From: Pseudomonas syringae CC1557 | Lineage (GTDB): Bacteria > Pseudomonadota > Gammaproteobacteria > Pseudomonadales > Pseudomonadaceae | Assembly (NCBI RefSeq): GCF_000452705.1 | Contig: NZ_CP007014.1 | Location: 2,108,001-2,172,000, forward strand | Length of the DNA: 64,000 nt | Direction of reading: 5' to 3' | Part shown: one piece after another, positions 44,284 through 47,342 of the stretch | Position numbering within the stretch: position 1 is the first letter of the stretch | Layout of the letters: the number at the start of each line of letters is the position of its first letter | The notes under the pieces: model-generated | Databases searched by the model: none | What the model was told of the DNA's origin: nothing | What the model saw: the letters and a program-made list of their open reading frames with translations, nothing else | Made by a program: the position numbers and the translations under genes

Positions 44284-44303
44284 TACTGTATGCATGAACA
44301 GTA
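44284..44303 (+). promoter_or_regulatory. LexA (SOS) box
   Basis: TACTGTATGCATGAACAGTA contains CTGT-N8-ACAG (44286-44301), the standard gammaproteobacterial LexA operator, with matching TA on both flanks. It ends 19 nt before the start codon of the small gene at 44323, so repression of that gene by LexA is expected. Confidence 0.85.
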
Positions 44304-44322
44304 AAAACGAATGAGGTCTGTC

Positions 44323-44520
44323 ATGTCCCTTAAGTCAGCGCAAAACTCCGTTACTCAACACTCTCGTACGCTTTCTACCGTCAACGAGATGCAGCGTGAG
44401 GATTTTCTCAGGATGGCGGCTGCACTGCGCCAGTTCAATGCCTGCCAGCCGGATGTCTCCATGGCCATTGTGGCAGCCCGCTCGGGTGGTGAGTTTCGGC
44501 AAGCGAGTGCAATGGAGTAA
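44323..44520 (+). CDS. Small SOS-box-controlled protein, hypothetical
   Basis: A 65-residue protein without membrane segments or recognised domain; it begins MSLKSAQNSVTQHSRTLSTV and ends in a Gly/Arg-rich tail. ATG 44323 is preferred to 44311 because a TGAGG site lies 6 nt upstream. The LexA box directly upstream predicts induction by DNA damage. It is followed by an 88-nt gap and the ParD-like gene, which has its own repeats, so co-transcription is uncertain. I do not recognise it as SulA or another known SOS product. Confidence 0.6.
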   Translation: MSLKSAQNSVTQHSRTLSTVNEMQREDFLRMAAALRQFNACQPDVSMAIVAARSGGEFRQASAME

Positions 44521-44564
44521 CACGCAGGCTATCGGGCCCCTGCAAAATCTCGCATTGATTGTGA

Positions 44565-44592
44565 GTATATGAAACGTATATGCTTCGTATAT
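44565..44592 (+). promoter_or_regulatory. Three tandem GTATAT repeats, candidate autoregulatory operator
   Basis: GTATAT occurs at 44565-44570, 44576-44581 and 44587-44592, spaced exactly 11 nt, that is one helical turn. The last copy ends 16 nt before the ParD-like start codon. Ribbon-helix-helix proteins often bind such tandem sites next to their own promoter, so autoregulation is the likely role. Confidence 0.6.
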
Positions 44593-44608
44593 TCCGATTG
44601 AGGTGAAT

Positions 44609-44857
44609 ATGGGTCTGGTAAAGATTTCCGAAAACATGCACGCCAACCTGCGCTCTGCCAGTGTTGCGCTTAGCCGATCCATCAATGCTCAGGCTGAACA
44701 CTGGATGCGCATCGGCATGCTTGCCGAATTGCACCCGGCGCTGGATTACAGCGAGATCTGTCAGATGCTGATCCGCATCGAGAGCACAGGCGACACCGTG
44801 CTGGCGACGCAAACCTTCAACGTTTCCGAGTTCGCGCTCTCCAAGGCGGCCTCATGA
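44609..44857 (+). CDS. ParD-like antitoxin-family protein
   Basis: An 82-residue protein of the ParD-like family: GLVKISENMHANLRSASVAL then SRSINAQAEHWMRIGMLAEL, a ribbon-helix-helix DNA-binding arrangement. ATG 44609 follows a TGAGG site; a GTG two codons upstream is also possible. The next gene, a methionine aminopeptidase, overlaps its stop by 4 nt (ATGA). No ParE-type toxin is present; the enzyme occupies the place of the toxin gene. Three GTATAT repeats upstream suggest it represses its own operon. Confidence 0.8.
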   Translation: MGLVKISENMHANLRSASVALSRSINAQAEHWMRIGMLAELHPALDYSEICQMLIRIESTGDTVLATQTFNVSEFALSKAAS

Positions 44858-45645
44858 GCAGTGCTATCGGTCTCAAGACCGAACAGGACCTTGTGCAGTT
44901 GCGCATTGCCGGCCGACTTGCCGCAGGTGTGTTGGCAATGATCAAGCCTTACGTCAAGTCTGGCGTCAGCACCGAAGCGCTGGATGACATCTGTAACGAG
45001 TACATCGTCAAGGAGCTGAAAGTGATCCCGGCCAATGTCGGCTATCACGGTTTCACCAAAACCACCTGCATTTCACCCAATGCGGTGGTCTGCCACGGTA
45101 TTCCTTCGGCCACCGATATTTTGAAGGACGGTGACATCGTCAACATCGACGTCGCGGTGATCAAGGATGGCTGGTATGGCGATACCAGCCGCATGTATCT
45201 GGTCGGCGAGGTCAGTCCCCTGGCCAGGCGTCTGGTCGATACCACTTACGAGGCGACTCGCGCCGGTATTCATGCGGTGCGTCCAGGCGCCACGCTGGGT
45301 GATATCGGCCACGCCATCCAGAGTGTTGCCCACCGTGAAGGTTTTAGTGTTGTACGTGAGTATTGTGGGCATGGCATCGGGCGCAAGTACCATGAAGAAC
45401 CTCAGGTTCTTCACTACGGCACTCAAGGCAAAGGTCTGCGGCTGAAAGAAGGCATGGTGTTTACCATCGAGCCAATGATCAATGTCGGCAAGGCTGGCAC
45501 CAAAACCCTTGCGGATGGCTGGACGGTGCTGACCAGTGACCTTTCATTGTCAGCCCAGTGGGAACATATGGTTGCCGTTACTTCAACCGGTTTCGAATTG
45601 CTGACACCCTGGCCTGAAGGCACGGGCGACTACCCGGCCATCTAG
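44854..45645 (+). CDS. map: Type I methionine aminopeptidase, probably a second copy
   Basis: A 263-residue MetAP type Ia enzyme that removes N-terminal Met from nascent proteins. The complete active site is present: His81, the metal ligands Asp99, Asp110, His173, Glu206 and Glu237 (NIDVAVI, GDTSRMY, CGHGIGRKYHEEP, TIEPMIN, QWEHMVAV). The essential Pseudomonas map gene normally lies beside rpsB, so this is likely an accessory paralogue. Translation is coupled to the ParD-like gene. A terminator follows. Whether it acts as a housekeeping enzyme or as the effector of a toxin-antitoxin-like pair is open. Confidence 0.92.
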   Translation: MSSAIGLKTEQDLVQLRIAGRLAAGVLAMIKPYVKSGVSTEALDDICNEYIVKELKVIPANVGYHGFTKTTCISPNAVVCHGIPSATDILKDGDIVNIDVAVIKDGWYGDTSRMYLVGEVSPLARRLVDTTYEATRAGIHAVRPGATLGDIGHAIQSVAHREGFSVVREYCGHGIGRKYHEEPQVLHYGTQGKGLRLKEGMVFTIEPMINVGKAGTKTLADGWTVLTSDLSLSAQWEHMVAVTSTGFELLTPWPEGTGDYPAI

Positions 45646-45954
45646 CTAGCCGGCTTCACACCTTGCAGACGTGAAAATGGCCTCTTCGAGAGGCCATTTT
45701 TCTGTTTGTGCAAAACCTGCCTGCAATGAGCGTCGCTTCCAGTGTACGTCTGTCACGCCAACGCCCTGCGCCTTCAGTACGGCTTCCCGGATCGGACCGC
45801 CGGATACCCCGCCGCTGAAGGCCCCCACCCCCGCATGCAGCGTTGCACAATGCAGCGCGTCGCTTTGACACAGGGTGGGCGTCTGATGCAGAAAGACATG
45901 CGACTTCCCGTCGAACCGGTAGTGAATTTCAAATTCCACTTGATGAATCATCAT
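45646..45954 (-). CDS. Hypothetical small Pseudomonas protein (possibly DUF6555-like)
   Basis: A 102-residue frame starting MMIHQVEFEIHYRFDGKS. Its pattern (IHYRFDGKSHVFLH, then DALHCATLHAGVG, then GVTDVHWKRR) recalls a family of short Pseudomonas proteins that I remember as DUF6555; this is not verified. The last 15 or so residues are encoded across the map terminator, so the true end may be unusual. There is no strong ribosome-binding site. A 75-nt folded element lies 32 nt upstream of its start. Confidence 0.5.
   Translation of the reverse strand: MMIHQVEFEIHYRFDGKSHVFLHQTPTLCQSDALHCATLHAGVGAFSGGVSGGPIREAVLKAQGVGVTDVHWKRRSLQAGFAQTEKWPLEEAIFTSARCEAG
45674..45704. terminator. Terminator after map
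   Basis: A perfect 12-bp stem (45674-45685 with 45689-45700) with a TCG loop, four A on the left and TTTTTC on the right. It lies 28 nt after the map stop. It is inside the 3' part of the convergent hypothetical frame. Confidence 0.85.
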
Positions 45955-45985
45955 GGCCTGCCTGAACGGCGCGCAACATAGCGCC

Positions 45986-46060
45986 ATCTTAAAATGAGTA
46001 CAGCGCGGTACTGGCGCGGTCCGGTGGTGAAAGTCCCGGGCCGCTCTGTCATTTTGAGAT
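45986..46060. other. 75-nt three-way-junction element, unassigned
   Basis: A 12-bp outer stem (45986-45997 with 46049-46060, one G.U pair when read as RNA on the plus strand) encloses a short hairpin (45998-46001/46008-46011) and a 9-bp hairpin (46016-46024/46036-46044, one G.U) with an 11-nt loop. It lies between endA and the minus-strand gene ending at 45954. It could be a small RNA, a leader element of that gene or a mobile repeat. It matches no riboswitch I know. Confidence 0.5.
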
Positions 46061-47205: not shown

Positions 47206-47342
47206 GGAAAAAGTCCCAGAGTTTGCTGTACGGGCATACAGTATTTCAGGGTGAGATCTTTCGCAACATCTATGTAGGATAAAGCGCCTGAAGTGGCACA
47301 ATGTCTGACCGAACAAATCCCATGACGCTTTTGGAGTCGCGT

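Follow-up and report, generated by a model that had tools for sequence, protein, structure and literature searches.

The locus described here raises the question of why a small gene from a family of antitoxins should overlap a gene for methionine aminopeptidase (MetAP), the enzyme of N-terminal methionine excision, and what the two would do together. Pfam and plasmid records name such first genes ParD-like (antitoxin), yet the partner is a housekeeping-type enzyme in 140 of 199 loci. The initial annotation of the stretch had proposed a toxin-antitoxin-like or stress cassette, possibly tied to DNA damage through a small gene just upstream.

Genes and sites of the locus

The window, by which the whole analysed stretch of 64,000 nucleotides is meant, carries the features collected in Table 1. 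Its ParD-like protein belongs to PF11903 (98.5 bits in a profile search against a cut-off of 23), and its MetAP exceeds the cut-off of TIGR00500 (309 against 171.35 bits) and also matches PF00557. The overlap of the ParD-like gene with a complete MetAP gene by ATGA, as first annotated, is thereby confirmed. The same applies to the three GTATAT repeats at 11-nt spacing that had been placed 16 nt before the ParD-like gene, the words lying at 44565, 44576 and 44587 and the last ending 16 nt before the ATG. The convergent gene on the minus strand (45646-45987) encodes a DUF6555 protein (PF20192, 69.6 bits) and ends right at the MetAP stop. The terminator-like hairpin beyond the MetAP gene is a single site where shuffled sequences average 1.5, a count that is not significant by itself.

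Table 1. Features of the locus, in window coordinates.
Feature	Position	Strand	Description
LexA-like box (SOS box)	44286..44301	+	CTGTATGCATGAACAG; precedes the small ORF; outside the cassette
Small ORF	44311..44520	+	69 aa from ATG 44311 or 65 aa from ATG 44323
-35-like hexamer	44555..44560	+	TTGATT; read from the sequence and from a family-wide hexamer peak at offset -12
Putative operator	44565..44592	+	three boxes at 11-nt spacing, GTATATGAAACGTATATGCTTCGTATAT, near-palindromic; overlaps the -10-like TATATG
-10-like hexamer	44577..44582	+	TATATG; inside the operator; read from the sequence
ParD-like protein	44609..44857	+	82 aa, ATG 44609, PF11903, Met-Gly start; proposed autorepressor
Second type I methionine aminopeptidase (MetAP)	44854..45645	+	263 aa
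Terminator-like hairpin	45673..45701	+	13 pairs; 3' of the MetAP gene

Distribution of the gene pair

Profile searches place PF11903 in 93 of 149 Pseudomonas genomes and in 109 of 398 Pseudomonadota genomes. The loci that were read comprise all 94 Pseudomonas matches and 107 of the 117 Pseudomonadota matches (the other ten are all weak, with E above 1e-10), giving 199 distinct PF11903 loci, with L104, a duplicate of L001, counted once; because the genomes are related, counts of loci and of genomes are not independent. In 140 of these loci the next frame on the same strand is that of a MetAP, and in 59 it is not, so that the pairing, for which a genome survey had been suggested, proves to be conserved. 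Every one of the 94 Pseudomonas matches has the partner, in two of them (L047 and L059) with a broken MetAP frame. Measured from the ParD-like stop, the nearest MetAP start codon falls between -8 and +4 nt in 136 of the 140 paired loci, most commonly at -4 (90 loci) or -1 (25 loci).

A scan of species genomes returned at least 590 ParD-like relatives, and MetAP lies downstream in all of the best 80 of them, which partly overlap the genomes already counted; the named loci nearest to the window pair are from what we take to be the Pseudomonas syringae group. Moreover, 178 plasmid records match the ParD-like protein, and the three that were opened (Ideonella, Pantoea and Acinetobacter) all carry the pair, annotated as a ParD-like family protein and map. 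A phage origin was considered and set aside, as 50,697 phage records gave no match at E<=0.01. Four ParD-like relatives do occur in viral contigs (L391-L394), each with MetAP, which lies downstream on the same strand in three (cut by the contig end in L394) and is divergent in L392; the ParD-like proteins of L391, L393 and L394 are of the MetAP-paired type, and these contigs are perhaps prophage or host contamination.

Overlapping genes on one strand can persist without any functional link, and MetAP might accordingly be a passenger, a chance neighbour kept through operon inertia. We regard this as very improbable, since 140 paired loci are spread across the phylum, outside Pseudomonas as well as within it and on chromosomes as well as plasmids, and since the N-terminus and the operator described below are restricted to the paired set.

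Two sets within the ParD-like family

In a tree of 61 representatives, from which residues 1-2 of the paired proteins and the whole of L078 were omitted, MetAP-paired and unpaired ParD-like proteins are split by a single branch (SH-aLRT 99.9), albeit with few columns and some long branches. Among the 57 unpaired loci with a downstream frame, six neighbours were scanned against Pfam and the rest judged by eye; the six comprise five ParE-like toxins of PF15781 and one zeta toxin (L200). Five unpaired loci have less than 800 nt after the ParD-like gene, and in one, L160, a single base remains and the partner is out of sight. The unpaired locus L182 does contain a MetAP frame, but some 0.75 kb downstream and past a ParE-like frame. 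In L199-L201, divergent PF11903 proteins precede P-loop genes (zeta by Pfam in L200, by eye in the others), a layout that resembles mycobacterial epsilon/zeta-like systems.

The two sets also differ in where they are conserved. The C-terminal half of ParD binds the toxin. Mean top-residue frequency falls from 0.73 in the N-terminal core to 0.43 after it in paired ParD-like proteins (27 representatives), as against 0.59 and 0.58 in unpaired ones (23 representatives), in a count that omits L078 and six divergent unpaired loci; in their C-terminal part the unpaired proteins retain NP and an invariant Glu. Read in this way, the label 'ParD-like antitoxin' appears to fit the unpaired set, and in the paired set MetAP would occupy the seat of the toxin, making the MetAP-partnered putative repressor kin to the antitoxins of ParE-like toxins.

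Putative operator and promoter

The family-wide site consensus is roughly ATACGAAACnTATACGnTTCGTATAT and nearly palindromic, and both orientations are about equally frequent (108 against 105). A weight matrix was derived from 39 Pseudomonas loci belonging to one MetAP clade, with L059 excluded. It gave a higher score than any shuffled sequence in 51 of 51 Pseudomonas loci with a MetAP of the second clade, in 47 of 49 from other genera and in 79 of 80 named loci, as against 0 of 58 unpaired PF11903 loci (one of the 59, with less than 60 nt upstream, was omitted), in a comparison that was not blind, the starting consensus having been chosen after the loci were inspected and the shuffles keeping single-base content only. 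Whether the repeats track the pair had been proposed as a check, and they are indeed confined to the MetAP-paired set. Scores of at least 15 bits are reached in 213 of 219 loci, the remaining six being without a good operator.

Furthermore, with ties counted, -35-like hexamers across the family peak 12 nt before the operator (44 against 4 in shuffles) and again at 26 nt (36 against 3), so that in either case the -10 element would fall inside a box. A general consensus promoter scan of the window listed no promoter at the operator. The operator occurs once in the genome when up to three mismatches are allowed, which points to a regulator that serves its own operon alone. In L392, a viral contig with an inverted MetAP gene, operator-like boxes occupy the stretch between the divergent ParD-like and MetAP genes; in this sole divergent arrangement seen, one case only, the putative site has stayed with both genes through rearrangement.

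Copies, active site and lineages of MetAP

The genome (5.8 Mb, two contigs) encodes one other MetAP, at G000:C1:4209268-4210011, which is 59% identical to that of the window and the sole other match at E<=0.001; rpsB divergently adjoins it, which marks the window enzyme as the spare copy. The annotation of a second MetAP, in a genome where this is not the only map gene, was therefore correct. A surplus is usual where the pair occurs: two or more MetAP matches were found in all 93 Pseudomonas genomes with PF11903 (E<=1e-3, a threshold at which some may be other M24 enzymes) and in all 43 other pair-bearing genomes (E<=1e-40), while the 56 Pseudomonas genomes without PF11903 have a single match in 31 cases and more than one in 25.

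All five metal ligands of a type I MetAP, together with the two histidines of the active site, are present in the window enzyme and are retained throughout the 205 distinct paired MetAPs, apart from one alignment gap; the positions follow what we take to be E. coli numbering. Paired MetAPs fall into two clades, A (132 distinct sequences, including that of the window) and B (73 distinct). In trees the clades are separate and housekeeping MetAPs lie nearer A. By the AU test, neither a single clade of all paired, lone and Asn-type MetAPs (p 0.369) nor one of A and B against the housekeeping enzymes (p 0.528) is rejected, and the repressor may have acquired MetAP once or twice.

The substrate pocket bears on a rival account that overlaps with the explanation preferred below and differs from it in the signal and in the purpose of the enzyme: the paired enzyme would be a backup or specialised MetAP with an altered pocket, serving to withstand natural inhibitors of MetAP or to act on other substrates, and the ParD-like protein an ordinary repressor that answers some other signal. 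All 73 clade B enzymes have S, Q and N at the equivalents of E. coli C59, Y62 and C70, all 132 of clade A have N at position 59, and an Asn subtype of proteobacterial MetAP1 has been described (Bala et al., 2019, as cited in PMC11773813). Clade A, however, has Y at 62 and, in 114 of 132 sequences, retains the Cys of position 70, and no alignment column sets both clades apart from housekeeping MetAPs. On balance this account is unlikely, with an appreciable chance of being right nonetheless. The window enzyme, with Cys at the C70 equivalent, is itself not an Asn-type MetAP1. Two simpler generalisations had to be dropped: an Asn-type pocket cannot serve as the mark of all paired MetAPs, as clade A mostly keeps Cys70, and Asn-type MetAPs are not always paired, as those of L367-L370 are without a ParD-like neighbour. 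The latter come from four gammaproteobacterial genomes of 1.7-2.0 Mb, in two of which (G554 and G696) the Asn-type enzyme is the sole MetAP match at E<=1e-30.

The toxin-antitoxin question

The layout is that of a type II toxin-antitoxin (TA) system, with a small regulator gene overlapping its partner and an upstream operator, the latter recognised by sequence only. A true type II system would make MetAP the toxin, for instance through over-trimming, and the ParD-like protein its neutraliser by binding and its co-repressor. Gene order, overlap and a small first gene of an antitoxin family speak for such a system, as do the patchy and plasmid occurrence of the pair and the ParE-like and zeta toxins among the six scanned neighbours of the sister set. 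MetAP, however, belongs to no known toxin family, and no PADLOC family was matched. A toxin of such a system would not be expected to persist without its antitoxin, yet five intact MetAPs of the paired clade stand at loci without an adjoining ParD-like gene (L202, L203, L205, L206 and L233); the genomes of two of these, G023 and G043, have no PF11903 at all, so that the regulator is dispensable there, and the other three carry PF11903 elsewhere. In addition, the ParD-like frame of L078 stops at codon 13 beside an intact MetAP, the presumed toxin-binding half of paired ParD-like proteins is the less conserved one, and yflG, the second MetAP gene of Bacillus subtilis, complements map when carried on multi-copy plasmids (PMC1266368, as far as the available text goes). 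The TA interpretation with which the locus was first annotated is thus unsupported, and we hold it to be improbable.

The N-terminus of the ParD-like protein

Eleven positions are invariant in 37 diverse paired ParD-like proteins: M1, G2, H11, R15, R23, S24, N26, Q28, W32, G36 and E40. The residue after the conserved start codon is glycine in every one of the 140 distinct paired loci and in all 80 named loci. The starts are 129 ATG, nine GTG and one TTG, together with L078, which is read from its ATG, and Gly2 is spelled by four codons (GGC 85, GGT 39, GGA 14 and GGG 2, with the window counted twice and L078 omitted), which indicates that the constraint acts on the protein. That translation begins at this Met is inferred from its conservation, and in 25 of 139 paired loci the 15 codons upstream contain a further in-frame ATG, as near as one codon in L037 and two in L033. 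Among unpaired ParD-like proteins, MG stands at the domain start, not always the start codon there, in one of 59; many begin Met-Ala, Met-Ser or Met-Pro, starts that MetAP trims as well.

The structural setting is presumed. A ribbon-helix-helix (RHH) dimer is expected for the ParD-like protein on the strength of family membership and, within the portion available, of PMC5728571. The AlphaFold model of the monomer has helices at 8-41, 47-60 and 72-81 and no strand, and it gave no PDB match at E <= 0.001 and eight weak matches, none of them RHH. In RHH proteins the N-terminal strand enters the DNA groove.

Taken with the invariant Gly2 of the paired set, a strand of this kind makes it plausible that removal of Met from the repressor acts as a switch. 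The Met-Gly start, a favoured MetAP substrate, would sit at the presumed DNA-contacting strand; with ample MetAP activity the Met would be removed and the repressor would bind its operator, whereas upon MetAP failure, be it through an inhibitor, metal loss or overload, newly made repressor would retain its Met and bind poorly, and backup MetAP would be made until excision recovers. The repressor might in this manner be a built-in sensor of N-terminal Met excision through which MetAP failure derepresses the backup enzyme, an idea that we put forward tentatively and consider unlikely as it stands. A purely structural need for Gly2 is a possible alternative to the sensor role.

The SOS-boxed upstream gene

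The small ORF matches no Pfam family over cut-off. Its relatives occur in 12 of 149 Pseudomonas genomes, all in the window's own clade, and in each of the 12 the gene precedes the pair at a distance of no more than about 1 kb. An exact CTGTN8ACAG precedes it in 10 of the 12 loci, which makes the small gene, but not the pair, a candidate member of the LexA regulon; a lone box would be weak evidence, as 0.92 such words are expected per window by chance. Of the initial claim of a LexA box before a 65-residue protein, the box stands, and the length may be 65 or 69 residues. A second CTGTN8ACAG word lies at 47226-47241, about one per window being expected by chance. In L020, L021 and L040 a gene of XRE type separates the small gene from the ParD-like gene; by eye it is phage-repressor-like, and the place is perhaps an insertion spot.

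These observations allow an SOS-controlled stress cassette of three genes, including the LexA-regulated small gene, to be weighed. The recurrent box and the close upstream position would suit it, and the window has no terminator-like site between small gene and pair, so that read-through is possible. The pair, however, has its own operator and occurs in 93 of 149 genomes as against 12 for the small gene, and the XRE-type gene intervenes in three loci; the cassette is therefore highly unlikely. As 81 of the 93 PF11903-bearing Pseudomonas genomes are without the small gene, it is best taken as a neighbour, a clade-limited SOS candidate outside the pair. The DNA-damage link proposed at the outset is accordingly not general, and SOS coupling was rejected as a feature of the family.

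Overall interpretation

Taken together, the pair is probably an autorepressed, patchily distributed operon for a backup MetAP, in which an intact enzyme holds the seat of the toxin in an antitoxin family. A ParD-like dimer would bind the three boxes, one helical turn apart and overlapping the promoter, and would repress both its own gene and the MetAP gene that overlaps it; once repression is lifted, extra MetAP would be made beside the housekeeping copy. As to the derepressing signal, our guess is that falling Met-excision capacity is the most likely. Sequence comparison across loci establishes the pairing and orientation, the operator sequence and the promoter-like hexamers that it overlaps, an active site intact by sequence, the other map and the kinship with antitoxins partnered by ParE-like toxins, and we infer the fold, DNA binding, repression and derepressing signal of the ParD-like protein. 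The initial annotation, which took the ParD-like protein as a likely autoregulator and MetAP as its likely regulated output, seems to have judged both roles rightly.

If this interpretation is true, an antitoxin lineage and a metabolic repressor are kin, a widespread second MetAP has a named regulator and operator, and the system lends itself to testing directly whether bacteria monitor the state of N-terminal Met excision. A derepressible backup could, in that case, blunt an inhibitor and would bear on MetAP as a drug target.

Comparison with known systems

The open-access literature, subscription journals and preprints lying outside the scope of the search, yielded no report on the ParD-like/MetAP pair. 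In the portions available, PMC3948609 describes a methionine aminopeptidase and a relBE system on one fosmid as separate ORFs and draws no link between them, and PMC6796979 names a plasmid map gene apart from the toxin-antitoxin genes of that plasmid.

Asn-type MetAP1 is a further point of reference. Bala et al. (2019), cited in PMC11773813 and PMC10742973, refer in their title to the relaxed specificity of this proteobacterial subtype. The paired MetAPs of clade B share its Cys-to-Asn change throughout (73 of 73), whereas clade A, to which the window enzyme belongs, mostly has Cys, and Asn-type enzymes also occur away from any ParD-like neighbour (L367-L370). A partner gene goes unmentioned in the parts of these two accounts that were available.

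A functional second MetAP has a precedent in B. subtilis, where, according to the available part of PMC1266368, YflG is an active enzyme, expressed at a low level beside an essential map, for which a weak repressor, YvoA, has been proposed. YvoA differs in being of the GntR family and encoded elsewhere, in contrast to the overlapping antitoxin-family gene found here.

On the regulator side, excerpts of two reports describe a PF11903-type regulator or antitoxin beside its partner, namely the epsilon/zeta-like pair with a PF11903 antitoxin of Mycobacterium sp. MHSD3 (PMC5728571) and Rv0366c-Rv0367c of M. tuberculosis (PMC6362051). The zeta-toxin neighbour of L200 corresponds to this arrangement, and the partner in both is, as far as these excerpts go, a zeta-type toxin and not MetAP. 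Also close is the TA system of PF11903 with a ParE-like toxin of PF15781, which shares with the present pair the family of the first gene, the gene order, the close or overlapping genes and the presumed autoregulation. What sets the pair apart is MetAP as the second gene, a fixed Met-Gly start, a less conserved C-terminal half of the ParD-like protein and a putative operator of three GTATAT boxes.
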